Below, in pieces: positions 41,940 to 64,000 of a DNA stretch of 64,000 bases. A program made the translations under genes and the position numbers. Source of the DNA: Nitrospirota bacterium (GTDB lineage Bacteria > Nitrospirota > Thermodesulfovibrionia > Thermodesulfovibrionales > UBA6898); NCBI GenBank assembly GCA_021783515.1, contig JAJXTV010000001.1, positions 62,001 to 126,000 on the forward strand, in the 5' to 3' direction. Position 1 is the stretch's first letter. Each line of letters opens with the position of its first letter. The notes under the pieces are model-generated. The model worked only from the letters and a program-made list of their open reading frames with translations, had not been told where the DNA came from and searched no databases.

Positions 41940-42836
41940 TCAGAAGCGCCTGCATGCGGGGTCGCGGAGTTCCAGAGAGCCCGCCGCTGCGAACGCCCTG
42001 CCCCTGCAGCCTCCCAGACATGCGGCGACTCTTTCGCATGGGCCGCATTCCCCCGGCGGATCGAGCAGGGAACGCCTGACTTCCTTCTTCGCGGAGGAGA
42101 GGATGATCTCCAACAGTGTCGTTTCATGCAGGTCGCCCAGTTCCCCCGGCATCGCAGGACAGGGATAGACCTTGTAGTCCGGGGACACATAGAGCATGCT
42201 GTTGGCCGCCTGGCAGCCGCCTTCGTGATAGTCGGCGTCGGGATAAAAGAGCTGCCAGAGAAAAGGGTCATGGATCGCGATCCGCAGCGCCCGGTAATCG
42301 ATCTTGCGCAAAGCGGCAGCCAGCGCCTCTTCCTCCTCACGCTCCGCACAGACGCACGGGCCGTTCAGTGCAAGTCTCTGGATCGGAAAGATGATGTCTG
42401 GTATTCCCTTCTCCAGACAAAAGGCGATCAGCTCCGGTATCTCGCGGTAGAGGCCTTTGCCGATTTCGAAGGAGACGCCGTGAAGCACGCCGGATTTCCC
42501 CCCTCCTTCTTTCCCTCCGTAAAAGGATCTCACCTCCTCCATCGAAGAGGTATCGACAAAAATTGAGGCCCCGGCCTCAACCGTATCTTCGAGGAGAGAA
42601 GGCTCCGCTGCAGCCGGTCGGACTGTCAGGGATATCCCGATCATGCCGCCGCCAAGGCCCCCGAGGACGGCCCGGCAGCATTCGCCCACCGGCACGGCCG
42701 GCTCCCGCAGACTCAGAAACAGGATCTTCGCGGCTTTTATCTCTTCACAGAGCCGGAGGCAGAGCGCCTCATCGGAAGCCGCATCCGGCAGGTCCCAGTA
42801 TATCCGTATCGGAGAAAGCAACTCCCTAAGATTCAT
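41940..42836 (-). CDS. SPASM-domain protein without radical SAM motif (GeoRSP-like)
   Basis: This 298-aa protein has a C-terminal cysteine-rich SPASM domain (EGGCQAANS, YPCPAMPG, CGPCERVAACLGGCRG, DPAC). Its N-terminal half has barrel-like segments but no CxxxCxxC. It therefore resembles the SPASM-only component of the GeoRSP system described from Geobacter-type genomes. With the full radical SAM enzyme and the PqqD protein upstream it completes the trio. The function is unknown; it may be a partner or scaffold. It overlaps the radical SAM gene by 11 bp. Confidence 0.75.
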   Translation of the reverse strand: MNLRELLSPIRIYWDLPDAASDEALCLRLCEEIKAAKILFLSLREPAVPVGECCRAVLGGLGGGMIGISLTVRPAAAEPSLLEDTVEAGASIFVDTSSMEEVRSFYGGKEGGGKSGVLHGVSFEIGKGLYREIPELIAFCLEKGIPDIIFPIQRLALNGPCVCAEREEEEALAAALRKIDYRALRIAIHDPFLWQLFYPDADYHEGGCQAANSMLYVSPDYKVYPCPAMPGELGDLHETTLLEIILSSAKKEVRRSLLDPPGECGPCERVAACLGGCRGRAFAAAGSLELRDPACRRF

Positions 42837-43839
42837 TTCTCCAGCAGTGGGGATCCGGGTTGTTCATGTCGCCGGTAAGGGCCAGGGTCCTTGCCGTGCA
42901 TCCGCCGAGACACTCGGAATGGCTCTTGCAGCTTACGCACTTCCCCTTCGGCACCTTGTTCCGCATCATATGAAGGACCGGTGAGTTGTCCCAGACCTCG
43001 ATCAGGTCGTCCCTGCAGATGTTCCCGACGACGATCGGGATAAAACCGCACGGGGTAATATCCCCGTTCGACTTGATATTGAGAGAGAGTTTTCCGCAAA
43101 CCGACCCCTTCACGAGCGAGTCGCCCTCCTTGTGCCCCAGCAGGGCGATGATCGGATCTTCGAGAGAGATGCGGAGGCCTTTCACCGTCCCCTTCATCGC
43201 GATCGCCTTGATATAAAAGTCGCGCCACTCCGCGGGACTAAGGTCGAGCATGTCTTTGTTGGCAAAGCCGAGTCCTGAGCACTTGAAGTTGTGAAAATTG
43301 ATATTGGAAACACCGGAGGAACGGGCCATTTCCACAAGACCGTCGACATCGTCAATATTGATCTTGCAGATGACGGAGGAAATCGACGTCTCGATGCCCG
43401 CCTCCTTCAGATGGGCAAGCGCGGCCAGCGCCCGCTCATGGCTCTTCTTAATGCCCCTGAACCGGTCGTGCACCTCGGCCTTCGGGCTGTCGACGCTGAT
43501 GCCGACCTTCGCGAACCCCGCCTCTTTCAGAAGGCGCGCCTTCTCCCGGTCGATCAGAAACCCGTTGCTGTTCATCGAGACCGAGAGCCCGCGGTCCGCC
43601 GCAAAGCGGGCGACCTCAAGCAGGTCCTTTCTCAGAAGCGGCTCGCCGCCCCCGAAGTTCACCGAGAAGACCTTCGCGGCCGCCAGTTTTTCGACGATCC
43701 CGCATACGGTATCAAAATCCAGTTCTTCGCTGACATCGGCCCTGCTGTAACAATGGCTGCACTGAAAGTTGCAGCGGTTCGTCACGGCCCAGTTGACCGT
43801 GAGGGGGGCGGCAGGTATCACACTATCTTTCATCGACAA
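42826..43839 (-). CDS. Radical SAM/SPASM protein (GeoRSP-like)
   Basis: This 337-aa enzyme has C23, C27 and C30 (CNFQCSHC), FGGGEPLLRKD, and a SPASM tail (GKLSLNIKSNGDITPCGF, KCVSCKSHSECLGGC, HCWRN). Together with the PqqD-like and SPASM-only genes it forms the GeoRSP-type set. Radical SAM/PqqD pairs usually modify ribosomal peptides, but no precursor peptide is obvious here. The start could be 6 bases further in (43833). It overlaps the PqqD gene by up to 17 bp, a sign of coupled translation. Confidence 0.85.
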   Translation of the reverse strand: MSMKDSVIPAAPLTVNWAVTNRCNFQCSHCYSRADVSEELDFDTVCGIVEKLAAAKVFSVNFGGGEPLLRKDLLEVARFAADRGLSVSMNSNGFLIDREKARLLKEAGFAKVGISVDSPKAEVHDRFRGIKKSHERALAALAHLKEAGIETSISSVICKINIDDVDGLVEMARSSGVSNINFHNFKCSGLGFANKDMLDLSPAEWRDFYIKAIAMKGTVKGLRISLEDPIIALLGHKEGDSLVKGSVCGKLSLNIKSNGDITPCGFIPIVVGNICRDDLIEVWDNSPVLHMMRNKVPKGKCVSCKSHSECLGGCTARTLALTGDMNNPDPHCWRNES

Positions 43840-44131
43840 GTCCTTCCTCCTTCAGATGCTCCAGGAACGCCACGACGTCGTTTCTGAGGACCTCCTCTTC
43901 CACGTCGAACTGCAGCTTCAGTTCGGAAACGATGTCGTCCACCGTCCTTCCGTCGCAGAGTTTCCATATCTCGGTGCCGAGAAGATTGAAAGAGTGCATC
44001 TTGCCGGAACAGAGGATGATCGACGTTCCCACGTCGGCCACGTCCTCGCCCTTGCCGAGCCCGGCGTATGCTTCCTCCTTATACCGGTCCTCCTCCCGCC
44101 ACTTCGCACCGGGATTTCTGTATATCTTCAT
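43823..44131 (-). CDS. PqqD-family protein (GeoRSP-like)
   Basis: This 102-aa protein has the PqqD wing fold: SIILCSGKMHSFNLLGTEIW, then CDGRTVDDIVSEL and FLEHLKEEGLV. PqqD proteins bind precursor peptides and present them to a radical SAM enzyme. It is encoded directly before the GeoRSP-like radical SAM gene. The sequence up to residue 35 is unusual for the family and includes KGEDVADVG. No precursor peptide gene is seen within the operon, so its client is unknown. Confidence 0.82.
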   Translation of the reverse strand: MKIYRNPGAKWREEDRYKEEAYAGLGKGEDVADVGTSIILCSGKMHSFNLLGTEIWKLCDGRTVDDIVSELKLQFDVEEEVLRNDVVAFLEHLKEEGLVDER

Positions 44132-44135
44132 TCCG

Positions 44136-44456
44136 TCAGTCGCCGTGGGCAGTGATCGAGGCGATCACAAGGTCTTCGCTCGTTGCGTTGCGTATCCCGT
44201 GATCCACCAGCGGCGGCACAACCACGATCTTGCCGCTCTCGATGACCTGCGTCTCCTTGCCCGACCTGAACTCTCCCTTGCCCTCAATGACGATCCAGAG
44301 ATGGTTGCCGTGGTGGGTATGGGTCACAATCTCCTGCCCCGGCTTCATGCAAAGAAGGTTTATCTTGGAGTGTTCGTCCGTCCATATGGTCTCCTGGTGG
44401 CGCTTTTCATCGCTGAACTTCTTGAGTTTCTGAACGTCCAGGATAGTCGTTTTCAT
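44136..44456 (-). CDS. Small cupin-domain protein
   Basis: This 106-aa single-domain cupin has THTHHGNHLW with the metal-binding histidines, E at ARL-like positions (IVIEGKGEF), and the second motif VVPPLVDHGIRNA. The ATG at 44456 has GGGAG 5 bases before it; a longer frame is rejected for lack of any such site. It stands 4 bp before the PqqD gene and is presumably part of that operon. Cupins of this type may be small isomerases, sensors or metal-binding regulators. Confidence 0.8.
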   Translation of the reverse strand: MKTTILDVQKLKKFSDEKRHQETIWTDEHSKINLLCMKPGQEIVTHTHHGNHLWIVIEGKGEFRSGKETQVIESGKIVVVPPLVDHGIRNATSEDLVIASITAHGD

Positions 44457-44534
44457 AGTCTCCCTCGATTCTTGCGGATTCATTCCGGCGCTTCCGCCAA
44501 GCCTGGCATCCACGCCGGCGCAACACGAACCATG

Positions 44535-46451
44535 TCACGCCTTATGCACAACCTTCAGGATGCTGCCTATGACCCTGGCAGCCCGGCTGAAAAAGTACGC
44601 CGCAGTCGCCGCAGGAAGCTCTTCCCCGTTTTGCACGGAGCCGGCAAAGAGGACCCCGTACCGCGAAGACACCTCGTTCGCCGCGGCCAGATCATTGACG
44701 CCGCCTCTCTGCGTTCCCGCCACGATCAACATGCTCCTTCCGTCTCCGGTGAACTGCGAGATCGCCTCCAGTTCGGCGCCGGAGAGGTAGCTCCCTCCCG
44801 CGTCGTTGCCAAAGAGCATCCAGATCTGGCTGTATTCGCCGAGCAGACCCCCGGTAATCACCGGGGTTTCGCGTCTGTCGGTAAGCCTGACCCTGAACCC
44901 CTTTTTCTCCAGGAGCGAAACGGCCTTCCTGCTGAACGCATCCGCCGCCAGTCCGGACCCGTGAAAGGTATCGTAAATGAGGATGCTCTTCTTCGCCGCA
45001 GAGGTATTGTTCTGCTCGAGCCACGCGGCGACATTGCCGATATATCTCTGGGTATCGTACTTGTCGGCCGGACCGTTCAAAAACCTCCCGAAGCCTGAAT
45101 CGAAGACGACACCTCCCTGCCCTTCGACGTCGTTGGTATAGGTGGCGATCATATTCTTGCCGTTGGGGTCCATTACGATCCGCACATGCTCGTCATTCTT
45201 CTGGATGGCCGTCGAGGTCCCGCCCGATACCGCGGAGACGCCCTTCAAGAGAGGATTGCCGGTGTCTGCGTAAGGGACGAAGACCAAAAACTGAAACGCG
45301 TAGGAGATGAGGATCGTGCCGGCCAGGCAGACGAAGAGATAGAGAAAAAACGCCCTCTTCTTGAATATCGTCCAGAACATTACCAGCGTCGGCACCGCCG
45401 TAACCGGGCCGCCTATCATAAACGCAAGCGCGGCGCCGCCGTCAATCGTGCCGTGCAGAGAGCTCTTTATATGATACACGATGCTCGATGCGCTGATCTG
45501 GTGCAGAAAAAGGGGGACAGACGCGAGCGCAACCCATATGACGCTCAGAGGGTCTTTTTCTCCGAAGAACCGGTAAATCCATTCGTACGGCATGTACCGT
45601 TCGACGATGATCCCCATCACCACGCCGACGAGGACATACTTGCCGACAAGCCAAAGCATCTCGGACGACTTCGCCAGGAAGATGACGAACATGCTGTCGG
45701 TCTTCGCCGCCACCCTGTGGCCGAACTTCTCCTTGCAGTTGCACCGAAGGCGCTCGTCCGGATAGGCCTCGTCGTGGAAATCGCCCCTCGGGATCGCCCC
45801 CTCGATAAAAATATCCTCGGTCCGGAACCCTTTGTTCCTCAGCAGATGGGTTATCGTCCCGGCGAAAATACCCATCGAGAAGGCCGCGATCGTCCTGATC
45901 ACCGTCCATTCCGGTCCGAGTTCGCTCATGGTTAGCAGGTAGGTCGAGGGGCTCATAAGGGGAGAGGTCACCAGAAGCGACATCACCGGGGCCAGAGGAA
46001 GGCCCGCAAACAGCAGGCTCACCGCTGTCGTAAGCGTACCGCAGGCGCACAAAGGGGTAAGGATGCCGACCAGAGACGCCAGAAACACGCTCAAATAACC
46101 GTATTTTCTGAGGCTGGCCTGGAGTTTCACGGCGATCTTGTAGGTGCGGATATAGCCGGCAATGAGTATCCCGACGATGAAGTACGGGAAGATGTCCCGC
46201 AGCTCAGCGGCAATGCCGTGCGGGTTGAACAACATATCCCACATCTCTCTCCCCAAACGCACCACGAACGAGCGCTCCATCAATGCGGGGTTCGCCGTCT
46301 GAAGGGTAGGGCCGAAACTCCATACATGCCATGCGATCAGAGAAAAAGAGGCGAGCAGCATGAGAAGGAGCGTCTTATTGGCCGCCCGGGATGGAGCACC
46401 GTGGACCTGGCATTCTTCTGTTTTTTTCATGCCGGCTGTTCGTAACGACAT
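44535..46451 (-). CDS. ArsP-like permease with fused C-terminal domain
   Basis: This 638-aa protein has an N-terminal permease part of the DUF318/ArsP family (about eight to ten helices; LTPLCACGTLTTA and FMIGGPVTAVPT are characteristic), with a cytoplasmic loop containing RCNCKEKF. Residues 430-638 form an extra alpha/beta domain (ILIYDTFHGSG, WMLFGNDAGGSYLS) resembling glutaminase-like/ThuA folds. I know of no established substrate for this fusion. The start is uncertain (46451 or 46430). It lies 9 bp after the YedE gene. Confidence 0.75.
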   Translation of the reverse strand: MSLRTAGMKKTEECQVHGAPSRAANKTLLLMLLASFSLIAWHVWSFGPTLQTANPALMERSFVVRLGREMWDMLFNPHGIAAELRDIFPYFIVGILIAGYIRTYKIAVKLQASLRKYGYLSVFLASLVGILTPLCACGTLTTAVSLLFAGLPLAPVMSLLVTSPLMSPSTYLLTMSELGPEWTVIRTIAAFSMGIFAGTITHLLRNKGFRTEDIFIEGAIPRGDFHDEAYPDERLRCNCKEKFGHRVAAKTDSMFVIFLAKSSEMLWLVGKYVLVGVVMGIIVERYMPYEWIYRFFGEKDPLSVIWVALASVPLFLHQISASSIVYHIKSSLHGTIDGGAALAFMIGGPVTAVPTLVMFWTIFKKRAFFLYLFVCLAGTILISYAFQFLVFVPYADTGNPLLKGVSAVSGGTSTAIQKNDEHVRIVMDPNGKNMIATYTNDVEGQGGVVFDSGFGRFLNGPADKYDTQRYIGNVAAWLEQNNTSAAKKSILIYDTFHGSGLAADAFSRKAVSLLEKKGFRVRLTDRRETPVITGGLLGEYSQIWMLFGNDAGGSYLSGAELEAISQFTGDGRSMLIVAGTQRGGVNDLAAANEVSSRYGVLFAGSVQNGEELPAATAAYFFSRAARVIGSILKVVHKA

Positions 46452-46460
46452 TGCGCCACG

Positions 46461-47639
46461 CTAGTCAAGCCCCGCCTGAAATTCCGGCGCAAACGTTTCG
46501 CCCCGCCTCCGGTAGAGAAGCCCGATAATCAGGAGAGCGCAGAAACCGAAGAGGACCGCCACCTGGCCTTCATAGGGAGTACCCGCCGCGGTGCCGCCGA
46601 GCCCCCAGTCCTGAACGAGCGCAGCTCCCGTCAGCATCCCGAGCACCGCGGCGCCGGCATCGGTATCGCCCTGTCCCGCGGATATCAGCTGCCTGAAAGG
46701 GCATCCCCTGATCAGCACCGACCCGAAGCCTACGACGAGCATGCCGAGAAAATTCCATACGTGGCTCTCGTTCGAGCTGGGCTGGCCGTACCAGCCGAGC
46801 GAAAACTGGCCGGTAAGAAGACTCGCGACGAGCGCGAACCCGAAAAACGAGGAGATCCCGATCGCCAGACCGGTCGTCCTCGGACAGACCGTAAATTCCC
46901 TCGGTCCCCAGAGGAAGAATCTCGACATCCCCCCGGTTATGCAGAAGCCGGTCCTCTGGCCGATCGCGCCGACCGCAAGACCGACGATGAGGGAAAGGGC
47001 GAGGGGTGCATACTCGGCCCCGGACCCCCTGGTACTCGTCGCGATAAAACCGGGTTTCCACAGAAGGGCGACGAGCAGGAACGCCATGAATATCGGTATC
47101 AGCAGGCCGTTGGCGTACGGCACGCGGCCGGGCTTCCCGAGGCTGAATCCGTGTTCGAGAAATTTCAGGCCGATATACACTCCCGCGGCAAGTCCGACGA
47201 CGCCGATCCATGCCGTCAGGTCGCCGGCAGCGATCCTGAAGACCATCTTGATGGGGCATCCCATGAAGACCGCGCACCCGATAATCAGGAGTATCCCGAC
47301 GAGATACCGCAGCAGGGGAGAGCTTCCTCCGGTGGCGACGAACTCCTTGCGCTGAACCGACATCAGGAACGCGCCGAGCACGAACCCGATGATCTCGGGC
47401 CTCAGGTACTGCATGCGGACGTTTCCGTGAAGGCCGAGCGCCCCGGCGATATTCTCCATGAAGCACGACACGCAGAACCCGGTGTTGGCCGGATTTCCGT
47501 AATAACTCAGCATCACCCCGCCGATACCGATCACCGCGCCCGCAAGAACAAACAGGTACTTGGGATAGCATGACTGTTCGGCGGGCAACGCCGCCTTTTC
47601 TCCTATCTCTGTCTTTCTCAGCGCCTTCATCTCGTTCAT
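46461..47639 (-). CDS. yedE: YedE/YeeE-type transporter (selenium/sulfur related)
   Basis: This 392-aa membrane protein has about nine to ten helices. Four cysteine motifs lie in line with YeeE/YedE proteins: TGFCVSCF, MGCPIKMV, RTGFCITGG and RGCPFRQL. YeeE imports thiosulfate, and YedE-related members have been associated with selenium metabolism. No selD or selA is near, so the substrate is left open. The ATG at 47639 is chosen from three options; a longer frame would overlap the TPR gene. Confidence 0.8.
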   Translation of the reverse strand: MNEMKALRKTEIGEKAALPAEQSCYPKYLFVLAGAVIGIGGVMLSYYGNPANTGFCVSCFMENIAGALGLHGNVRMQYLRPEIIGFVLGAFLMSVQRKEFVATGGSSPLLRYLVGILLIIGCAVFMGCPIKMVFRIAAGDLTAWIGVVGLAAGVYIGLKFLEHGFSLGKPGRVPYANGLLIPIFMAFLLVALLWKPGFIATSTRGSGAEYAPLALSLIVGLAVGAIGQRTGFCITGGMSRFFLWGPREFTVCPRTTGLAIGISSFFGFALVASLLTGQFSLGWYGQPSSNESHVWNFLGMLVVGFGSVLIRGCPFRQLISAGQGDTDAGAAVLGMLTGAALVQDWGLGGTAAGTPYEGQVAVLFGFCALLIIGLLYRRRGETFAPEFQAGLD

Positions 47640-47658
47640 ATGCGAGAGCCGTGCCGTC

Positions 47659-48189
47659 TTAGGAGCAGCTTCCCGCAATCCTCCTCTGGAGATAATAAAT
47701 GGTCTTTCTCTCCTTCTTCAGCGTCTCATCCGCGGGGTTGCGGACGAGGCCCGCCTCGAGTTCCGCCAGGGCCTCCCTGACCGCCACCTTCAGTTTCTTC
47801 CCCTGAAAGGAGGGGGTTTTCTTGTCGAGGTAATCGGGGTTCAGGTCGACCGCCTCCTTGTACTGGAGGACCCCTTTGACCGACTCCTGCTTTCTCATAT
47901 AAATATCTCCCATCACCATGCGGGCACCTCCCTCGTACGGGTGTTTCCGGAGCAGTTCTTCTGCCAGCGGCTCCGCCTTGGCGAGGTTGCCCGCCTCCAT
48001 GAGATTTCTGATCGCCCTCACCTGCGAGGCGACTTCTCCCCCCGCCGCGGCAGAGTCGGTCGCAGCTGCCTTCTGCTGCTGGAGGCTCTTATCCAGCCGC
48101 GCCTCTCCCATATGGCCGCTGATAAGCGCAAACGAGCTGATGATGAGAATCACGATCGCCCAGATCGATATCCGATCGAGCCAGTCCAT
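47659..48189 (-). CDS. Membrane-anchored TPR protein
   Basis: This 176-aa protein has one N-terminal membrane helix (residues 8-25), a short linker, and TPR-like helices (about 55-120; MEAGNLAKAEPLAEELLRKHPYE). It starts on the shared TGATG with the substrate-binding protein upstream, so translation is coupled. It probably scaffolds a periplasmic complex with that lipoprotein and the ResB-like protein. No enzyme motif is seen. Confidence 0.75.
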   Translation of the reverse strand: MDWLDRISIWAIVILIISSFALISGHMGEARLDKSLQQQKAAATDSAAAGGEVASQVRAIRNLMEAGNLAKAEPLAEELLRKHPYEGGARMVMGDIYMRKQESVKGVLQYKEAVDLNPDYLDKKTPSFQGKKLKVAVREALAELEAGLVRNPADETLKKERKTIYYLQRRIAGSCS

Positions 48190-49085
48190 CAGTACCTCTG
48201 GTAGGGGGGCATGTTCGTCCTCTTCGCCATCTCCCTCACGCTGTCGTAATCCTTGTCCCTGACGTCCTCGTATCCGTCGATGTTCGCCTGTTCGAGCACC
48301 CGCACGACCTGTCCGTCGACCTCGACGGTATCGTCCTTCTTCAGATCAAGGAGGGCCTTCTTGACCTTCTGCGCAAGGCCTTCGTCCGTCTTCTGCGTCA
48401 CCCCGAAGGTGCAGTACGGGATCGGCAGCCCTTCGCCGACCACCGTGAATTCATTGCGGTCGATCTTGCCCTCTTCGATCATCCGGTCGAAATCGGTGAC
48501 CGGAACGGCGCCGGCGTCGTATTTCCCGAACAGGACGCCGTAAATGACCTTTTCATGCTTGAACGCGCCCGAGGGGATAGTATAAAAAGCAAGATCATTG
48601 TCCGGATTGAGTCCGCCCTTCTGGAGAAGATCCAGCTGGGACATATACGCCGTAGGACCGAGGGACGGACCGAAGATCATCGACTTCCCCTTCAGGTCCT
48701 TGATGGTCTTGATGCCGCTCTTCTTCAGCGCGATGATCGCGCCCTGCGACCTGCCCCCGAGAGGCCCTGATTTTTCGGCGGCGAGCACGTCCACGCCGTA
48801 ATCGCGGTTCATGATGATATACAGGAGCGAATTGGTGTGGGTGAAGTCGAGCGTGCCGACCTGCTTGACGAAGTCGACCGTGTCGATCGGGACCATCTCG
48901 AAATTCACGCCGACCTTTTTGGAAAGATACGCCGTCAGCGGCCTGAACCGGTGCATCGTCTCCTGTTCGCTGTTGCAGATCATATAGCCGATCCGGTAGG
49001 TCTTCTTCTGCTGTTTCGGCGCCGGCGCGTTGCAGGAGACCGCAAAAAGAATAAGGAAACCCGCCAGAAGAATGCGACGCGTCAT
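48189..49085 (-). CDS. Phosphonate-binding-like (PhnD family) lipoprotein
   Basis: This 298-aa protein has a lipoprotein signal with lipobox FAVSC (Cys18) from the start at 49085, then a periplasmic binding domain (YRIGYMIC, LTAYLSKKVGVNFEMVPI, GKSMIFGPSLGPTAYM). It matches PhnD-type binding proteins, but there is no ABC permease or ATPase in the cluster. It probably works as a sensor or ligand carrier for the adjacent TPR and ResB-like proteins. The ligand is unknown. Confidence 0.82.
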   Translation of the reverse strand: MTRRILLAGFLILFAVSCNAPAPKQQKKTYRIGYMICNSEQETMHRFRPLTAYLSKKVGVNFEMVPIDTVDFVKQVGTLDFTHTNSLLYIIMNRDYGVDVLAAEKSGPLGGRSQGAIIALKKSGIKTIKDLKGKSMIFGPSLGPTAYMSQLDLLQKGGLNPDNDLAFYTIPSGAFKHEKVIYGVLFGKYDAGAVPVTDFDRMIEEGKIDRNEFTVVGEGLPIPYCTFGVTQKTDEGLAQKVKKALLDLKKDDTVEVDGQVVRVLEQANIDGYEDVRDKDYDSVREMAKRTNMPPYQRY

Positions 49086-49125
49086 CCTGCCGACCCTGAT
49101 AAGCCACTTCCCCGGCGCTCCGAGA

Positions 49126-50043
49126 TTACCGTTTTCCATACACCTTCCTCACGAAATACATTCCGGACCCGAGACCTATCACTGCAAACCCCCAATACAC
49201 GAAAGGCTTTCCGGGGTCGTAGGTTATCTGAATACCCGCGAACCGATTACCATAACGGTCCGCGTCCAATGAAGTATTATAAAAATTAAGTTTTTCCCAT
49301 GTCAACGGACTGTTCACCGCGGAGGTCCCCTCGACGACGCGATCCCCCTTCGTAAGCGTCAGGTCGACCCATACCCGCTTCATCGCGGGGTCCTTGAAGG
49401 CAACGAGTTCGAACGAATACGGAAAACCCGAAGGAAGGTTGCGTTCCCCCCCGGTCCAGGCGTCGCCGATGCGCTCGCCCCCGTTCGTCACGACAAGATG
49501 GAGGTTCTCCGCCGGAAATTCTATCGAATCGGCGGCGACGGTATAGCGGTCGAGACGAAAGTCCTGCCCGGTCTTCAGTTCGAACAGTGCGACCTTTTCG
49601 TTCCCCCTGAGCACCCCCACCTTCACCGGCACCGGATAATACTCGACATGGACCTTCCGCAGGCCAAGCTTGAAACCCAGGGGCGTCTCTCTTTTCAGGT
49701 CCCACCGGTACGCGCTATTCACCGACGTCCCCTCATAGACATTCACCGTCGAGACGAAACCGTAGGAACTGATCACGGCGCCGGTCAGCGTCACGATCGT
49801 ACCGATATGGATCACGAGCACCGCCTTTGAGAAGGACCTCGCCCTCCTGACGGTGCAGAAGACCAGGTTCAGGGCGAGACATCCGAAGAGGATGCGGGGG
49901 AGCAGCCCCAGCGAAATCTCCTCGGTCTCCCGAAGCGTCCGGGGGATGAGCGCCACGCACAGAAGTATCAGCAGGACCGCCGCCAGTTCTTTCGATGCGA
50001 GGAAGCGGAAGGCCCGGCCGAAGATATTCGACTGTCCCGACAC
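49126..50043 (-). CDS. ResB-like cytochrome c biogenesis protein
   Basis: This 305-aa membrane protein resembles ResB, which with ResC (CcsA) attaches haem to c-type cytochromes. Helices are near residues 20-37, 45-62 and 74-95, and a last helix near 285; between them lies a periplasmic beta domain. It is shorter than the full ResB of about 450-550 aa. No ResC/CcsA gene is adjacent, so a separate role with the two binding proteins is possible. It begins 11 bp after the upstream binding protein. Confidence 0.75.
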   Translation of the reverse strand: MSGQSNIFGRAFRFLASKELAAVLLILLCVALIPRTLRETEEISLGLLPRILFGCLALNLVFCTVRRARSFSKAVLVIHIGTIVTLTGAVISSYGFVSTVNVYEGTSVNSAYRWDLKRETPLGFKLGLRKVHVEYYPVPVKVGVLRGNEKVALFELKTGQDFRLDRYTVAADSIEFPAENLHLVVTNGGERIGDAWTGGERNLPSGFPYSFELVAFKDPAMKRVWVDLTLTKGDRVVEGTSAVNSPLTWEKLNFYNTSLDADRYGNRFAGIQITYDPGKPFVYWGFAVIGLGSGMYFVRKVYGKR

Positions 50044-50054
50044 CCGAGCTGCCG

Positions 50055-50639
50055 TCAGATGAGTCTCTTTGCCTTAAGGAAATCCCGTGCGACTTTTTTG
50101 GGTTTCTCGCCGGATTCGACCGACTTGACAAGCCTCGTGTAGGCCTCGTCGCTGATGCTGCTGCAGAGCTTATTGATAACTCTCGGAAGCGCCGGAAAAT
50201 TGGTGAGCACCGCCGACCGGAGGAGGGCAGCCGTATAGGAAGGGGCGCCGCCGTTGCCGTTGAGAAATCCGAAGGGCCTCAGCCAGACCATTCCCCTCTC
50301 CTTTTCATAGGCAGCCTTCACCACCTCGTATGCCTTTTTGGCGTCCTGCTCCGCAGGTCTGTTCAGCACACGCAATGCCCTCACGGTATTTTCGAAGGAG
50401 ATGTCCACCTTCTCCTTCTTCATCGCCTCATCAAGTTCCTGGTCATTCCTGAAGAATTGTATCGTGACCGTCGTGCCGGTCCTCTCCGTGATGAGCGTCG
50501 AAAGCAGTTCCGAAAGCACCTGCCCTTCAGGGGAATTGAGAACACCGACGTTCAGCACCTTCCCGACGCAGGCGTCCGCCGCCGGGGCAAGAAACACCGC
50601 CGCTATCATTATCACCGCCGTCACAATCGCCTTTTTCAT
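50055..50639 (-). CDS. Secreted substrate-binding-like protein (OpuAC/PBP type)
   Basis: This 194-aa protein has a signal peptide (to about residue 24, PAADA) and a short PBP-like domain (KVLNVGVLNSPEGQVLSELL, TVTIQFFRNDQEL, KEKVDISFENTV). The sequence resembles the first lobe of glycine-betaine-type binding proteins, but it is too short for two full lobes. GGAGG lies 9 bases before the ATG. It precedes the ResB-like gene and may be the ligand-binding partner of that protein. Confidence 0.72.
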   Translation of the reverse strand: MKKAIVTAVIMIAAVFLAPAADACVGKVLNVGVLNSPEGQVLSELLSTLITERTGTTVTIQFFRNDQELDEAMKKEKVDISFENTVRALRVLNRPAEQDAKKAYEVVKAAYEKERGMVWLRPFGFLNGNGGAPSYTAALLRSAVLTNFPALPRVINKLCSSISDEAYTRLVKSVESGEKPKKVARDFLKAKRLI

Positions 50640-50713
50640 ATTCGTTGCCTCCTTTGCATCCGGCGTTCGTCCCTCCCGGCCGCCTTTGTTATTATAAAAC
50701 ATCCGCCCTCCGG

Positions 50714-55019: not shown

Positions 55020-56279
55020 TCACGGTTCCTCAAACGGAGGCGCATCCTCCGATAGCCGGTCTACGACAATCTCAATGTCCGATCGAACCTCTCCAAACCT
55101 GACATGGATCGAGTGGTCAGCGCTCCCCTTCCATGGGCCGAACCATGATCCCGCCAGCGGCCGCCCATAAACGCTTCTCGAACACAGAAAATATCCTCCC
55201 TGGACAGGCACGGAAAGATCGAACCGGCCATCGGCTCCCGTAAACCCAGAAATAAACACGGGCATGCCGACCATTTTAGGGTTCAAATAGAGTGCTGCAT
55301 ATACGCCATGCACCGGGTGGCCGTCGCTGTCGACGATGCGTCCTTTGATCGTCGCAGGCGGCAAAGCGGAGGATGCGCCGCGCGTCTTTTCCATCCTGAG
55401 TTTGAACATCGGTATCGCCGACGCCGCGTAGCGCTCTGTCTCTACAACAACCGGATTACGTGGATCGTACCCGAGAAGATCCCCTTTATGCATAGGACCT
55501 ATGTACACGCCCTTGTCGGTCCTCAGCCGGGCCAAAAGATAGTAACGGTTCGGAGGGAGATGAAGCGCAAACTCCCCTTTCTCATTTGTACGAACCATTG
55601 CCTGGTAATCGTCAGCCCTCAACCACGTGCCGGTCTTGGCATATGCAAAGACCCCGGCGTCAGCCACAGGGGCGCCGTCATACATCACTACGCCGTAGAC
55701 TCCCGATCCAGCTTTAGGAGCAGCGGATTCTGCAGGAAGCGAAGGGACTTCCTGAAGCAGCATGGTGATCTCTTCGCTGTTCTCGGCCGAAATCAGCCAA
55801 GGACTCCCGCCGAACCAGGCGAAACGGTCGCCGGGCTTCAGCGGCCTTGCATAATCGCCGTCAGACCGCCATTCAGCAGTCAAATAATAGGCCCCGGACT
55901 CCGGATGGAAAATCGCAGTGCCCATGCCTTTAGTAATCGCGGTAAGGGCAGGAACCTTGTCCCGCAGATGCCGGCGCCATTCGACACGGACACCGGACAG
56001 GGGAGTGTTATCCCAGATCGTCCTGACCACGTATGTCCCGGGCTTAACCGTTGCCCAATACGTCGCGGGCTTGGGCCGCTCCATAAGCGGACCACCTGGG
56101 AAGGCCGAACCCGCCTCCGCCGAAGGTCCACCGTCCGCTGCGCCGGTCTTTCCTGCCTGCACCGGACTGGGATCAGCACCCCGGCCTGTCGTATCCGCAC
56201 AGGCTGGACGAACCCCGATCAAAATGATCGCCAGCACTGCCGCAGCTGCGGCCAGCCCGGCTTTCCCTTGGCATCGCAT
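55020..56279 (-). CDS. Secreted carboxypeptidase-regulatory-like protein 3
   Basis: This 419-aa exported protein has a signal peptide (GLAAAAAVLAIILIG, cleavage near PACADT), a low-complexity linker, and three or four beta-sandwich units, each with a G-x-Y/x-Y-Y element (SGAYYLTAEW, PNRYYLLARL, QGGYFLCSR). The second is followed by GPMHKGDLLGYD. I placed the start at 56279, where the signal peptide begins; an upstream ATG at 56375 has a better ribosome-binding site but adds about 32 polar residues. Confidence 0.65.
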   Translation of the reverse strand: MRCQGKAGLAAAAAVLAIILIGVRPACADTTGRGADPSPVQAGKTGAADGGPSAEAGSAFPGGPLMERPKPATYWATVKPGTYVVRTIWDNTPLSGVRVEWRRHLRDKVPALTAITKGMGTAIFHPESGAYYLTAEWRSDGDYARPLKPGDRFAWFGGSPWLISAENSEEITMLLQEVPSLPAESAAPKAGSGVYGVVMYDGAPVADAGVFAYAKTGTWLRADDYQAMVRTNEKGEFALHLPPNRYYLLARLRTDKGVYIGPMHKGDLLGYDPRNPVVVETERYAASAIPMFKLRMEKTRGASSALPPATIKGRIVDSDGHPVHGVYAALYLNPKMVGMPVFISGFTGADGRFDLSVPVQGGYFLCSRSVYGRPLAGSWFGPWKGSADHSIHVRFGEVRSDIEIVVDRLSEDAPPFEEP

Positions 56280-56388
56280 CCCGATGAGATCGAACGCGCC
56301 TATGAAAAACAGATAAGTAACCCCGCGATTATGGCCGTCTTCTCTTTGCCTGACAATGTCGGAAAGCATTCGCATTCGATCATACCTC

Positions 56389-58080
56389 TCATGGATAGGG
56401 GATGATATACCGTTTTTCTCCGGACTTGTGGTACGGCGCCTTCCTCTTTTCGATTTCGGCATCCCACGCCATCAGCTTCGCCTTGAGCTCCGCGGCGATC
56501 TCCGGATGCTCCGCCACTACATCGTGCATCCCGGCCGGGTCTGCGGTCAGATCGTACAGCTCCATGTTCGTGATTTTAACCGGCTTCCCGGTAATGAAGG
56601 CAGGCCATGAGACCTTCTCGAGCAACCGTGGGTTTTTCCGGAGGATCAGCTTCCAGTGTGTCGTCCGGATCGCGACATCGCCGGGCGGATACGCACCCTC
56701 CGGCAATTCCTTAAGGAGCATATTCTCATACGCGGCTATCGCCTTATCCTCCGACGGAGGGTGGTTCCTCTTCAGGGGATCCTGGAATTTAAACTCAAGA
56801 AAGAACCGGCTCATCCAGTGTTCCCACCAGGGCATTCTGTCAATGTAGGCGTAGGGGCTTCCCTTGGCCCCGGCCTCTCCGCGGACCAGCGGCATCAAAT
56901 CGGTGCCCTGCAAGTCTGCCGCGACCGGGATGCCGAGATACCCGAGAATGGTCGGCAGAAGATCCACTCCCTGTACCTGATCGGTAATCCGCCGGCCGGC
57001 GTACCTGCCGTCGGGAAAATCGATCATCAGCAAATTCTTCAAGACTGATTCATAGAGGTCGTAGTTGATAAAGATACCCTGCTCCCCGAGGGCTTTCCCG
57101 TGAATCGAATAAAATATTACAACGGTGTTTTTATCGAGTCCCGTCTCCTTGAGCTTGTTCATCAGCTCGCCGATGAACTTGTCCGTGTAATGAATGCCTG
57201 CGTCGTATCTCGCCTTGATGTATTCGGCGTCCGCCGGCTTAAGGTGATACACGGGTTTGAAGCCCTCGTAAAAATCGTTGTTCCATATCCTCAGCAGGAG
57301 GTCGATCGTGGGGTCGTCCGGGCCCCCTTCGTTGCCGGAGACCGGATAAAAGTTCTGCCAAAACGGCTTGTACGCGGGAGGATCATACGTCGATTTGTCA
57401 GGCTCAGGGACAGTAGCGGCATACGGCGGGTGTATGGAGCCCGAAGCTATCCAAAGGAAAAACTTTTTCGACTTGTTCTTGCCGAGCCAATCGAGGGCCT
57501 CGGTCGGCACCACGCGCATCGACCTGCCGACATGGCGCTTCGGCCAGATGTAGTCGTCGAACCCCCTCGAGAAAACATCACGGAGATCGATAGTCTTGCC
57601 GGATGCGCTGTCGAAACGCAGAACAAACTCCGGCGAGGTCACGACCGCAGCCGTCTTATAGCCGTAGTACTTCAGGATCTCCGGGATCGTCCGTGAGGGC
57701 ACCGAATCCTTCGTCACGTCGAAGGTGACCAACCCGTTGACCCGCGGGTATTGCCCTGTCAGCGCGGACATCATGGCGACCGGAGTCAGGTTCGTCTGCG
57801 CGATCGAGTTCTGGAACACGACCGACGACTTCGCGATCCGGTCGAGGTTCGGGGTCGTGTCCCGGGAGTATCCGTTCATACCCATGTGGTCTGGCCGCAG
57901 GCATTGCAATGACACAAGAATGACGTTGGTGTTTTCGAACCCCGGGACCTTCGCCTTTTCAGCTGCCAGGGAGGGCCCCGCAAAGGACCCTGCAATAACG
58001 GCACAAAAAAGAAGCGCCATCCCAACAGGCGCCGCGAACCTCAAGATACTCACCTTGCTCATTCCGTTTTCCCATCTCAT
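56389..58080 (-). CDS. Exported sulfatase-fold protein, probable pseudoenzyme
   Basis: This 563-aa exported protein has an alkaline-phosphatase/sulfatase fold. The typical V-x-x-D-x-L-R metal motif reads SLQCLRPDHMG (the first Asp is Gln), the formylglycine site C/S-x-P-x-R is replaced by TNLTPVAMM, and the metal Asp-His of SDHG reads SIHGKALGEQG. So at least two metal-site aspartates and the usual nucleophile are missing, and a classical sulfatase reaction is unlikely. The ATG at 58080 has AAGGAG 7 bases before it. It may be a binding protein or a variant enzyme. Confidence 0.82.
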   Translation of the reverse strand: MRWENGMSKVSILRFAAPVGMALLFCAVIAGSFAGPSLAAEKAKVPGFENTNVILVSLQCLRPDHMGMNGYSRDTTPNLDRIAKSSVVFQNSIAQTNLTPVAMMSALTGQYPRVNGLVTFDVTKDSVPSRTIPEILKYYGYKTAAVVTSPEFVLRFDSASGKTIDLRDVFSRGFDDYIWPKRHVGRSMRVVPTEALDWLGKNKSKKFFLWIASGSIHPPYAATVPEPDKSTYDPPAYKPFWQNFYPVSGNEGGPDDPTIDLLLRIWNNDFYEGFKPVYHLKPADAEYIKARYDAGIHYTDKFIGELMNKLKETGLDKNTVVIFYSIHGKALGEQGIFINYDLYESVLKNLLMIDFPDGRYAGRRITDQVQGVDLLPTILGYLGIPVAADLQGTDLMPLVRGEAGAKGSPYAYIDRMPWWEHWMSRFFLEFKFQDPLKRNHPPSEDKAIAAYENMLLKELPEGAYPPGDVAIRTTHWKLILRKNPRLLEKVSWPAFITGKPVKITNMELYDLTADPAGMHDVVAEHPEIAAELKAKLMAWDAEIEKRKAPYHKSGEKRYIIPYP

Positions 58081-58389: not shown

Positions 58390-59199
58390 TCACCGGGAGA
58401 TCAGTGGGGGCCTGTTAGCAGGCTTTTTGTCTACAAATGGATGAACCTGGATGTCAATCCCTTCAACCAATTTATGTTCTTCCACAGTAACCGGCCTCAT
58501 CGTCTCACCTCCATAAACGCCGACCAAACCTCCGGCCTTTGGGCGGCCACCCTTTTCGTCAAACGTACGGGCAGTCAAAAAAAAGGTTCCCCCCCGGTCA
58601 ACCTTGACAGTATATTTTCCATCCTTTCCCGTTGCACGCGATACAAAGTTCGGCTTGCGCTTGACATCGGGATTATCATAAACGAGGACTACTACACCGG
58701 CCAAAGGCGTGCCGTCTACAGTTTTGACCACGCCCGCTATTGCGGTCGTCCCTTCAGGCATCTTTATGGCGCGCGATTTAAAGACGGTAGCCCCCTGGAG
58801 AACGCCGACATCGGTCGTCTCGCCGCGTTTCACCGCATACTTAATTAACTCCCCTCTTTGATCGCGGACAAGGCCGTACAAATCTCCCTCCTGAGGAGGC
58901 CCCGGTATGTCCCCATGCGCCTGCTTCCTGGTTGACAGGAAGTATGTGCCTTCCGGAAGCTCCAGAGCAAATTTACCTGCAGCGTCTGTCACGGCTATGC
59001 CGACTGGGCTATGCAGAGGACGATCGCGTTGCGGCGGAGGACCGGAAGTCGCATCGAAGGCATAGATCAGCCCATCGGAGATTGGGCCGAGACCCGGGGG
59101 GACCCAGGAGCCCGATAAGTGTCCGGTAACATTTTCGCCAGCAACAGCTGCCGAACTCCAAACAACTATCAGAATTATGACTGACAGGCAACGGTTCAT
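58390..59199 (-). CDS. Secreted carboxypeptidase-regulatory-like protein 4
   Basis: This 269-aa protein has a signal peptide (to about residue 20) and two beta-sandwich units ending PEGTYFLSTRKQ and GGTFFLTARTFDEKGG. The first is followed by GPPQEGDLYG, close to the protein at 54179-54988, with which it also shares length and domain order, so the two are paralogues. It lies upstream of the sulfatase-like gene on the same strand but has its own possible promoter. It ends HPFVDKKPANRPPLISR. Confidence 0.7.
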   Translation of the reverse strand: MNRCLSVIILIVVWSSAAVAGENVTGHLSGSWVPPGLGPISDGLIYAFDATSGPPPQRDRPLHSPVGIAVTDAAGKFALELPEGTYFLSTRKQAHGDIPGPPQEGDLYGLVRDQRGELIKYAVKRGETTDVGVLQGATVFKSRAIKMPEGTTAIAGVVKTVDGTPLAGVVVLVYDNPDVKRKPNFVSRATGKDGKYTVKVDRGGTFFLTARTFDEKGGRPKAGGLVGVYGGETMRPVTVEEHKLVEGIDIQVHPFVDKKPANRPPLISR

Positions 59200-59328: not shown

Positions 59329-60626
59329 TTGACTCACAAAAAATGTTACCCAAAGGAGTAAACAAAGAGGATCGTTGACTCATAATGCATATTACCGAAA
59401 AAACATGCATAAGAAGGGACGGGTTTAATGAGTTCACGATCGAAGCGAGAGTATCTTGAAGCAATTCATCAAAGGTACAAAGAAGGCACCAGGAGGCAAG
59501 AGAAGCTTATCCTGGATGAATTCTGTGCTGCCTGTGGGTACCATCGCAAGCATGCCATACGGCTGCTAAAGAAATTCAGACGGTTTAGTAAGCCGAAAGA
59601 GAAAAAGAAAGGCAGAGCACCCAAATACCAGGCGGAGGAGATAATAGCTCCTCTGAAACGCATATGGCTTGCGGCGAACCTTCCCTGTTCCAAGAGGCTC
59701 AAAGCAGTGCTCCCGCTTTGGCTGCCAGGATATGCGCAGCAGTATGGTTGTCTTACCGCGGAGGTGACGAAAGCCCTGCAGGCGATCTCTCCTTCAAGCA
59801 TTGACAGGCTTTTGAAGCCGGTCAGGGTGAAGTATAAAGGGCGCGGCAAGTCCACCACAAAACCCGGCACCCTCCTAAGGAAACAGATACCTATAGACGA
59901 ACCAGTGGTACGAATCCCGTCCCGGATTCTTGGAGGCCGATACGGTTGCCCATTGTGGCACATCCATGGCAGGCATGTTTGCCTTCACCATCGACTGCGT
60001 GGATATCGCCACCGGCTGGACAGAGCAGAGGGCCGTGTGGGGCAAAGGAGAAACTGACGTTGTAGCTAAGGTAAAGGACATAGAGACTTCATTGCCGTTT
60101 CCGTTACTGGGATTTGACAGTGACAACGGCTCTGAGTTCCTGAATCATCATCTCTTGAGACACTTCACCGACAGAAAGCATCCCGTGCAGTTTACCCGCA
60201 GCAGGGCCTATCACAAGGATGACAACGCCCATGTGGAACAGAAGAACTGGACCCACGTCAGACAGTGGCTTGGGTATCACCGCTTCGACAACCCTCAGGT
60301 CGTCCCTCTGCTCAATGAGCTCTACACTACCGAATGGAGGCTCTTCCATAACTTCTTCTGCCCTTCGGTGAAACTCCTCAAAAAAGACAGGGTTGTCTCA
60401 AAAACGATTAAACGATATGATACTCCCAAGACGCCTTATCAGAGAGTCATGGAGTCGGAGGATATACCGCCCGGGGTTAAGAAGGAGCTCACCGATCTGT
60501 TCCAAACGCTTAACCCCTTCCACCTGAGAAAGGCCATAGAGAAGAGGCTCAGCAAGATCTTCCAGTTGCACTGTAAAAACTCACGTTGAGTCACCGACCC
60601 TTCGGTAACATTTTCCTATGAGTCAA
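59329..60626 (+). mobile_element. Insertion sequence, about 1.3 kb
   Basis: The 1,298-bp element is bounded by terminal inverted repeats of 22 and 23 bp: TTGACTCACAAAAAATGTTACC at 59329-59350 and its near-complement at 60604-60626 (mismatches and one indel in the middle, with eight identical outer and eight identical inner bases). It holds one integrase-type transposase gene that is frameshifted. No direct target repeat is evident in the flanking bases. It has interrupted the region between the surface-protein operon and the tRNA genes. Confidence 0.85.
59428..60589 (+). pseudogene. Integrase-core transposase, frameshifted
   Basis: The N-terminal part reads as a helix-turn-helix transposase start (MSSRSKREYLEAIH). 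The integrase (DDE-type) core is in the second frame (GFDSDNGSEFLN, with EADTVAHCG before it and HVEQKNW after). A frame change near 59896 (around CCTATAGACG) separates them: one base gained or two lost relative to the expected IPIRTNQW. The second frame has a stop just before that point, so the product is not made in one piece unless ribosomes shift. The element is probably inactive. Confidence 0.85.
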
Positions 60627-61090: not shown

Positions 61091-61268
61091 AAACGGCCCC
61101 CTTTGTAAACTTTACCCGCGCAGCAGGCCCCGCCCGCCCGTGCCCCTCAGGAGCCCCGGTATTGATTTTTCCTTTTCGTACGCGCTATCCTGAAAGAAGG
61201 ATAACGTGCGCCTCAAAAATACAATATAAGAACAGCGTTATTCGCGACGCGCGAGGGAGAAAGCAACC

Positions 61269-64000
61269 ATCAAAAGCCTCAGCAGACAGCTCTTCTGGAT
61301 ACTTTTTTTCGGCGTCATCTTCTTTTTCGGGATCCTCACCTTTCTCATCCTCCAGCGGGAAAAAGCGATCATTTATTCCCTGTACGAAGAAGATTCCCTC
61401 CGCGCCGCCAACATCGTCGCGCAGAACATCACCCTCATGATGCTTGACTCCGACCCCGATGTCCTCGCCGGCAACATGAAGGCAATAAACGGCACGGGGG
61501 CGATGACCGTGGGAGTGGTCGGAACGCAGGGGCGGCCCGCCTTCGGCACCTCCCTTGCCGTGCCGGAAGAGATCCTGCGACTCGATCGTGACTATCATGT
61601 CGCCACCGCAGAGGAGCTGACCCTCTACCGGCCGATCCCGAACGACCGGAGGTGCCATCGCTGCCATTCCGCAAAGGACAGCAAAAGGGGGATGATGGTG
61701 GTCAGGACCTCGCTCGCCGGGGCGCAGAACGCAGTTTCTGAAACGGCCCGGCGGCTCCTCCTCTTTGCCATCATCCTGGGTCTTGCCAGCGAAGCGTTCC
61801 TCGTGGCGGCCCTGAGGAAGAAGGTCCTCGAACCGCTGGGGGTGCTGCACCGGGGCGCACTGCGCCTGAAATCGGGAAAGCTCGGCCACAGGATACAGCT
61901 GAAACACCACGATGAGATCGGCGCGCTGGCGTCCTGCTTCAACGAGATGGCCGAGAGCATCGAGCGCTCCCATACGGACCTCGAAAATGCCGTGCAGGAG
62001 CGGACAGACGAGTTGAGGGTGGCCGCCGAACTCTCCTCCGAGGTTTTCAGGGGCGACCTCGCGCTGGAAGACATCATCGAGCGCTTCCTCCGCGCCATAA
62101 CAGACGAGTTGGGCTATGGCTACGCTTCGCTCTGTCTTGTCGACAGGGAAACGGGACTTCTCTCCCATGAATTCAAGAAGGGCGGCGGCGAGGGGTTCTG
62201 CGCGATGGGGATCCTGCTCTCGGACGAGCATCCCCTCACAAAGACGATCCGCGAGGCGGTGCCCTCGGTCAAAAGGGCTGAGGAACTCGGGGCGTCCTCT
62301 TCTGACGCCAATGTCGCGGTCGTTCCGATACTGTCCCGACAAAGGAGAAGGTGCAGGGATATCAACCTCTGCCGGCACGAAACCTGCCCCGCGTTTTTCG
62401 CCGATGACGACAGGTGCTGGCTGATAGACGGCACCCTCTGCCGGAGCCCCCAGTCGGTCGCAGGGAAAGACAAGATTTGCGGGTGTCTCCATTGCCCGGC
62501 ATTTCCGGTCCTCGGGGTGCTGATCGCCGGCAGGGGGGAGGAGATCGGTGCTACCTCCCTGCATTCCTTCGAGGTCCTCGCCTCCGAACTGGCTTCTGCG
62601 ATGGAAAATCAGAACTTCATCGAGGCGAAGAAGGCCGATATCTCAAAGCTCGTGCGGTTGCACGACGTGTCTGTCGGGTCTCTGCAGAGCCCCGGCGGCG
62701 ATCTGGAACATATCATCGTCACGTCCGCGTTGGCCTTTTCGAACGCAGACGCCGCGGTCCTGTGGCGCCTCTGGAAGGACGGAATGCTGCATCCTGCGGA
62801 TTCGGCGGGAATCGATCCGGGCCAGGTCCCCTCGCCGCTGCGGCCTGACGATTCCTTTGTCGGCAGGGCGTTCTCGGAAGGAGGGGCAGAAACCGTCGAG
62901 ATGCAGGAAGTAAAGGGGTTGGAAGATATGATCAGGGGGCATGGCTTCCTGTATGCCGCCTCAATTCCGCTTACCTTCAAGGATACCGCCCTTGGCTGTC
63001 TGACGCTGTTCAGGAAATCGGATTTCCCCATGAACGACTCCGAAAGGGCGATCATCCTGCTGTTTGCAAGCCAGGCCGCGGCGGCGATGAACACCATGCA
63101 GATATACAACGAGCTGAAGACCGAGAAGGAATTTTCGGATGCTATCTTCTCCTGCGCGTCAAGCGGCATCATGGTCCTGGACGGGGACGGCCGCGTCCTG
63201 AAGATGAACGCCGTCGGTGCGGAGATCCTCCGGGTGGATGCCGGTGACGCCGTCGGGCAAAAGATAACCGGGATATATCCGGAAATGGAGGATATGCGTG
63301 CGCTCAGCGAGGGGCTCGGGAGGGAGATGACGATAACCCTTCCGACGGGGGAGGCACTGCCGATCGGCTTCGCCAACTCGCGCCTCTTAGCGTCCGGCGA
63401 CGACGAGAAGGGAGTAATCGTTCTTTTCAGGAATCTGGCCGAGATAAAGAGGCTCCAGGCGGAAGTCCGGAAGAAAGAGCATTTCGCCACGATGGCAAAA
63501 GTGATTTCGGGAGTTGCTCACGAGATACGAAACCCGCTTTTCGGAATATCCTCCATCGGCCAGATACTCGAGCGGGAGCTGGATTCACCCCAGCATAAAG
63601 CGCTGGCGCAGGCGATGCTGAGAGAGTCGGACAGGATGAAGAGGCTCATCGAGGAACTGCTCCTGTACACGAAACCTTCCCGCCTCGAAATAAAAGAGGT
63701 GGACCTGGCAACCCTGTTCGAAGAGCTCGGCCACTACATGAAGGCAAAGAGGGAGGCCCTGTCGCTGTCGATTGCCGTGCCGCCGCTTACGACCATCAAG
63801 GCCGATCCGGACAAGATCACCCAGGTGTTCCTGAACCTTCTCAACAACGCAGTCGACGCCGCCAGAAAAGAAATTCTCCTATCGGCGAGGACATCAGGCA
63901 ACGACGTGGAAGTCCGGATTACGGATGACGGCCCGGGGATCAAAGAGGCAGACCTCGTCAGGGTATTCGACCCTTTCTTCACCACCAAGAAGGGGGGGAC
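61269..64000 (+). CDS. Membrane histidine kinase with haem-type sensor (3' end outside window)
   Basis: The frame encodes a sensor kinase of which 910 codons are visible. It has membrane helices near residues 8-28 and 155-177. The periplasmic part between them holds C129-H-R-C132-H133, a CxxCH haem c motif. A HAMP region, a GAF-like domain with a cysteine-rich insert (about 362-410), a second GAF, a PAS and a HisKA domain with H751 (VAHEIRNPL) follow; the HATPase has its N box (NLLNNAVDAA) and DDGPGI, and the window ends inside it. No ATG, GTG or TTG lies between the in-frame stop at 61227 and residue 56. ATC at 61269, with GAGGGAG upstream, is the best start. Confidence 0.88.
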   Translation, partial: MKSLSRQLFWILFFGVIFFFGILTFLILQREKAIIYSLYEEDSLRAANIVAQNITLMMLDSDPDVLAGNMKAINGTGAMTVGVVGTQGRPAFGTSLAVPEEILRLDRDYHVATAEELTLYRPIPNDRRCHRCHSAKDSKRGMMVVRTSLAGAQNAVSETARRLLLFAIILGLASEAFLVAALRKKVLEPLGVLHRGALRLKSGKLGHRIQLKHHDEIGALASCFNEMAESIERSHTDLENAVQERTDELRVAAELSSEVFRGDLALEDIIERFLRAITDELGYGYASLCLVDRETGLLSHEFKKGGGEGFCAMGILLSDEHPLTKTIREAVPSVKRAEELGASSSDANVAVVPILSRQRRRCRDINLCRHETCPAFFADDDRCWLIDGTLCRSPQSVAGKDKICGCLHCPAFPVLGVLIAGRGEEIGATSLHSFEVLASELASAMENQNFIEAKKADISKLVRLHDVSVGSLQSPGGDLEHIIVTSALAFSNADAAVLWRLWKDGMLHPADSAGIDPGQVPSPLRPDDSFVGRAFSEGGAETVEMQEVKGLEDMIRGHGFLYAASIPLTFKDTALGCLTLFRKSDFPMNDSERAIILLFASQAAAAMNTMQIYNELKTEKEFSDAIFSCASSGIMVLDGDGRVLKMNAVGAEILRVDAGDAVGQKITGIYPEMEDMRALSEGLGREMTITLPTGEALPIGFANSRLLASGDDEKGVIVLFRNLAEIKRLQAEVRKKEHFATMAKVISGVAHEIRNPLFGISSIGQILERELDSPQHKALAQAMLRESDRMKRLIEELLLYTKPSRLEIKEVDLATLFEELGHYMKAKREALSLSIAVPPLTTIKADPDKITQVFLNLLNNAVDAARKEILLSARTSGNDVEVRITDDGPGIKEADLVRVFDPFFTTKKGG

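Follow-up and report, generated by a model that had tools for sequence, protein, structure and literature searches.

A conserved sulfatase-fold family with lost metal ligands, mostly encoded beside an intact relative, in Geobacter-type and Nitrospirota bacteria

Why should a bacterium keep an exported protein of the sulfatase fold in which residues of the metal site have been replaced? The question is raised by a gene, here called A, of the window, the 64,000-nucleotide stretch of DNA analysed here. The Pfam family Sulfatase (PF00884) matches residues 52-384 of its product with an E-value of 7.1e-38 and 131 bits against a cut-off of 25, and the sequence has an N-terminal signal peptide with no membrane domain ahead of the sulfatase domain. 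The AlphaFold model, made from an alignment of 50 sequences, has a pLDDT of 86.6 and a pTM of 0.87; it superseded a first model (22 sequences, pLDDT 70.8) in which the active-site loops were poor. Among solved structures Foldseek ranks S1 sulfatases and phosphonate monoester hydrolases highest (best E-value 1.9e-24), with moderate TM-scores of 0.5-0.7, which is what an identity of about 20% would lead one to expect. A preliminary description had called A a secreted protein of the sulfatase fold, and signal peptide, Pfam match, model and structural search agree with it. Its coordinates for the gene are correct, with the coding sequence on the minus strand, and the three motifs that it pointed out, SLQCLRPDHMG, NLTPVAMM and SIHG, are all present. 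In the model, Q59-C60 lies directly behind strand 52-58, helix 99-108 starts at T99, and I326-H327 lies directly behind strand 319-325.

Table 1 Features of gene A and its surroundings, in window coordinates.
Feature	Coordinates	Strand	Evidence
CarboxypepD_reg-like protein, 269 aa, upstream of A	58390..59199	-	PF13620 2e-07, slightly below cut-off
A: predicted pseudo-sulfatase, alkaline-phosphatase-superfamily fold, signal peptide, 563 aa	56389..58080	-	ORF analysis (ATG start at 58080), Pfam, model
Q59-C60, replacing first metal Asp and next residue	57901..57906	-	Q 22/22, C 22/22 in class A
T99, nucleophile position, kept	57784..57786	-	T in 50/50 aligned sequences
I326-H327, SIHG instead of SDHG	57100..57105	-	326 is I/M/S, H327 universal in class A
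CarboxypepD_reg/DUF4198-like protein	55020..56375	-	PF13620 1.2e-09
CarboxypepD_reg-like protein, 288 aa	54179..55045	-	Pfam 7e-06, below cut-off
Right-handed beta-helix / NosD-like protein, 842 aa	51448..53976	-	PF13229 4.9e-33
CarboxypepD_reg protein, 266 aa	50714..51514	-	Pfam 9.8e-13
OpuAC-like substrate-binding protein	50055..50702	-	PF04069 1.4e-11; family f6, beside GeoRSP in 6 genomes
ResB-like membrane protein	49126..50043	-	PF05140 2.6e-09; family f8, in 6 genomes
PhnD-like binding protein, TPR protein, YedE-type transporter	46461..49139	-	Pfam; TIGR04112 380 bits
ArsP-type permease and cupin protein	44139..46451	-	families f7 and f4, in 6 genomes
GeoRSP PqqD-family chaperone TIGR04302	43826..44164	-	132.8 bits, cut-off 100
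GeoRSP radical SAM/SPASM protein TIGR04303	42826..43839	-	550 bits, cut-off 400
GeoRSP SPASM-domain protein TIGR04304	41940..42836	-	273 bits, slightly below cut-off 300

The substitutions at the metal site are a property of the whole group of close relatives, hereafter referred to as class A. Besides the residues listed in Table 1, H217 is found in 22 of the 22 aligned members, as is T99. Position 326 is Ile in 16 members, Met in 5 and Ser in 1, and in none is it Asp. C60 is the sole Cys of the mature protein throughout these 22 sequences. Furthermore, H334 is gone from all members but one, and H339 has additionally been lost from the sub-branch to which the window copy belongs. The proposed loss of metal ligands, Asp to Gln at position 59 and Asp to Ile in the SDHG motif, is thereby confirmed for the class. 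Many of the relatives came from a pattern scan in which LQCLRPDH was one of two probes, and that set is hence biased to the signature; profile-HMM genome searches, which are free of this bias, recovered no full-length copy that departs from the signature. The substituted positions are invariant over about 29 distinct copies.

Pairwise dN/dS within class A is about 0.07-0.1, a range that refers to the pairs with usable dS, many dS values being saturated. The window copy and that of locus L013 differ with a dN of 0.12 and a dS of 1.87, and the copies of L013 and L015 with a dN of 0.10 and a dS of 0.93. A decaying gene heading for loss might be suspected from an internal stop in one relative copy (L068), but with such ratios and such invariance this reading is scarcely credible, and random decay is ruled out. 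A combines a conserved fold, a fixed loss of catalytic residues and purifying selection, by which a pseudoenzyme is recognised. Since the substituted residues are invariant and dN/dS is low, class A is, as judged from its sequences, a conserved pseudoenzyme family and not a product of decay, and the suggestion that the gene is under selection for something else stands.

The nucleophile position tells a different story from the one first proposed. The formylglycine motif C/S-x-P-x-R, which was said to have been lost, is indeed absent, the local sequence being T99-P-V-A-M. However, all aligned relatives have Thr at this position, the intact ones included, which points to a lineage without formylglycine from its origin; the A lineage probably never had it, and a loss within that lineage is ruled out. 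A profile search of the window's own genome for the anaerobic-type sulfatase maturase (TIGR03942) gave no match over the cut-off. Of the preliminary description, then, the fold, the ligand loss, the selection and a nucleophile-position Thr that lacks the customary metal ligands (T99, with Q59 and I326) were upheld, while the loss of formylglycine was not.

Two known types of enzyme can be compared with A. With the S1 sulfatases of PF00884 (BuS1_11, 7lha/7lj2; PsS1_19B, 6prm) it shares the fold, the domain order and the substrate-side His (H217), but it differs from them in lacking the formylglycine motif and in the replaced metal Asp residues. Weak NCBIfam matches link A to the Thr-type phosphotransferases EptA/MCR and LtaS, with which it shares the Thr at the nucleophile position. 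That type has a Thr nucleophile, metal ligands and an N-terminal membrane domain. A lacks the membrane domain, and of the metal ligands two Asp residues and one metal-side His have gone; in place of the acidic residue before the nucleophile and of the Asp of the D-H pair A has Q59 and I326. The positions that we take to correspond to K123 and H125 of S1 enzymes, in arylsulfatase A numbering, are likewise replaced.

The relatives could be divided into three classes. Class S keeps D59, T99, D326, H327, H334 and H339 in 12 of 12 sequences. Class B occurs in Geobacteraceae and Desulfuromonadaceae; it has retained D59, H334 and H339 but carries I326 in place of the Asp. D59 is present in all members of both S and B, and C60 is absent from B. 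In the tree each class forms one clade with a support of 100/97 or better; A groups with B, and S lies elsewhere. The loss of only D326 in class B, compared with the larger loss in class A, shows that the ligands were lost stepwise, class B being an intermediate state. As A and B lie together on a branch separate from that of S, a recent tandem duplication that gave rise to neighbouring S and A genes is ruled out. A deep set of relatives (L035:1224-9587) has S-like proteins with a degenerate look (SINNVG, IGFEPLG) and an A-like protein that keeps D59.

The window's own genome (48 contigs) has three sulfatase-fold genes. One is a paralogue of A on contig C24, 53% identical and with the same substitutions; directly upstream of it lies the third, an intact-looking class S gene whose stop overlaps the start of the paralogue. 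Close relatives of A were found, in a scan of the genome collection, in Geobacter, other Geobacteraceae, Desulfuromonadaceae, Desulfobulbaceae, Nitrospirae and unclassified Deltaproteobacteria assemblies. By our own count, S adjoins A on the same strand in 22 of the 26 copies of A with usable flanks, sometimes with a B gene or a small protein between them. In the Geobacteraceae assembly Cfx3-08 (L016:6453-9569), S and then A are read in a single 1039-aa frame from which A's signal peptide is absent. Such a fusion occurs in one species only, and no other observation hints as strongly at the two proteins forming a physical complex. As adjacency does not prove contact, the neighbourhood alone does not establish this complex.

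Given that the metal-site loss is fixed and conserved, and that S nearly always adjoins A and is once fused to it, A probably serves as the non-catalytic half of an enzyme pair and is not a decayed gene. We put at about even the chance that A is an exported pseudoenzyme serving as a non-catalytic subunit of a hetero-oligomer with a catalytic class S protein. In such an oligomer S, the intact Thr-nucleophile member, would be the putative catalytic subunit and might hydrolyse or transfer a phosphate or sulfate ester, the substrate presumably being a polymer of the envelope or of the extracellular space. A would retain a metal-free anion pocket formed by T99, H217 and H327 together with Q59-C60, and most likely it would position the substrate for S or stabilise S, in what we infer to be a physical complex.

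Four copies sit uneasily with this arrangement: the window copy, L022, L031 and L033 have no adjoining S, and near the window gene neither S nor a remnant of it could be detected. The window copy may use the S protein encoded on contig C24, or it may have switched to its CarboxypepD_reg and beta-helix neighbours. Alternatively, A could be a stand-alone, lectin-like binder whose empty pocket holds a sulfated or phosphorylated surface polymer, S being unnecessary; the binding of such a polymer had been suggested in the preliminary description. A is exported, and H217, T99 and H327 are invariant; like the window copy, L031 and L033 carry A without an S beside it, and the beta-helix and CarboxypepD_reg proteins beside the window copy are typical extracellular modules. 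However, the pairing with S in most copies, and the fusion, make a partner-subunit role the likelier one, and we regard a stand-alone binder as rather unlikely.

The invariant pocket allows two further readings, both of which we consider improbable. In one, a new active site that works without the usual metals would be built from Q59, C60, T99, H217 and H327. The lone, invariant Cys, the Thr and the two invariant His residues would suit a repurposed enzyme of this kind, but no known chemistry fits, the metal Asp and H334 are lost, and class B does without C60. In the other, A is a regulator or sensor in the manner of YejM/PbgA: with its hydrolase domain inactive, it would detect a lipid or polymer of the envelope and pass a signal on to a partner. 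YejM/PbgA, which has the arylsulfatase/LtaS fold, is described as a pseudo-hydrolase scaffold that lacks catalytic residues (PMC13125744, PMC7773988). A is likewise exported with a conserved pocket. Papers disagree on the activity of YejM, one of them reporting that it is a phosphatase with bound metal (PMC7576196). YejM/PbgA/LapC has an exported domain of A's superfamily, but it is anchored in the membrane, and its lineage and context differ; A itself carries a signal peptide but lacks a membrane domain, and no cytoplasmic partner is evident. Among proteins of the superfamily whose catalytic activity is in doubt, YejM/PbgA comes closest as a precedent.

The surroundings of A differ among its relatives. 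A hydrolase of the metallo-beta-lactamase fold with the motif HLHSDH lies near the S-A pair in 15 loci, and proteins of one cluster (c2), mostly with eight CxxCH motifs and thus octaheme cytochromes, in 14 loci. In Geobacter sp. OR-1 (L019:177-3512), two sulfotransferase-like genes and an arginine-deiminase-like gene lie upstream of a set of hydrolase, S, B and A genes. The sub-branch of the window copy is accompanied by CarboxypepD_reg proteins instead. For one of these (55020..56375), the longest open reading frame starts at 56462, within gene A, and starts at 56375, 56369 or 56279 are likelier. Just upstream of the cluster, two overlapping transposase-like frames (59428-60589, plus strand), the first without a Pfam match, may be a frameshifted insertion element. 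They are followed by a probable sensor kinase (61230-63998, plus strand) with one CxxCH in its input region, possibly a haem-binding sensor.

Downstream, the window contains a complete GeoRSP cassette of PqqD-like, radical SAM/SPASM and SPASM proteins (41940-44164, minus strand). The gene order beta-helix, CarboxypepD_reg, OpuAC-like, ResB-like, permease, cupin and GeoRSP is repeated in five other genomes. In one genome, a 1456-aa open frame with 20 CxxCH motifs stands directly upstream of the row of beta-helix and GeoRSP genes (G402:C61:89047-93414). In six genomes A is near the GeoRSP system (TIGR04302-04304), at 8-30 kb from the radical-SAM gene, but it lies outside the defined cassette. 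Among 141 genomes of Geobacterales, A is present in 15, GeoRSP in 35 and both in 13 (Fisher p=1.4e-7); among 396 genomes of the window's phylum, A is present in 4 and GeoRSP in 24, and all 4 have both (p=1.1e-5). As these tests ignore shared ancestry and lifestyle, the co-occurrence is an association and not a functional link.

GeoRSP as an obligate partner of A is ruled out, 5 of 23 searched genomes having no match over the cut-off. We located no paper on the GeoRSP target. It could be imagined that the lone, invariant Cys60 is a new kind of modified or catalytic residue whose maturation might depend on the linked radical-SAM/SPASM system; A would then combine the sulfatase fold with a novel cofactor-like residue. 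We think this very unlikely, as GeoRSP gives no match over the cut-off in several A-bearing genomes, and most GeoRSP genomes do without A.

To our knowledge, pseudoenzymes of the sulfatase/alkaline-phosphatase fold have rarely been described besides YejM, and our literature search found nothing on point for the A family, for inactive sulfatases or for Geobacter sulfatase clusters. Class A offers a whole conserved family of apparent pseudoenzymes; the intermediate forms, the intact gene as its partner and the naturally occurring fusion allow the step from enzyme to partner subunit to be tested directly. Furthermore, octaheme cytochromes and GeoRSP are linked to the family, which gives a new handle on both systems in Geobacter-type and Nitrospirota bacteria.
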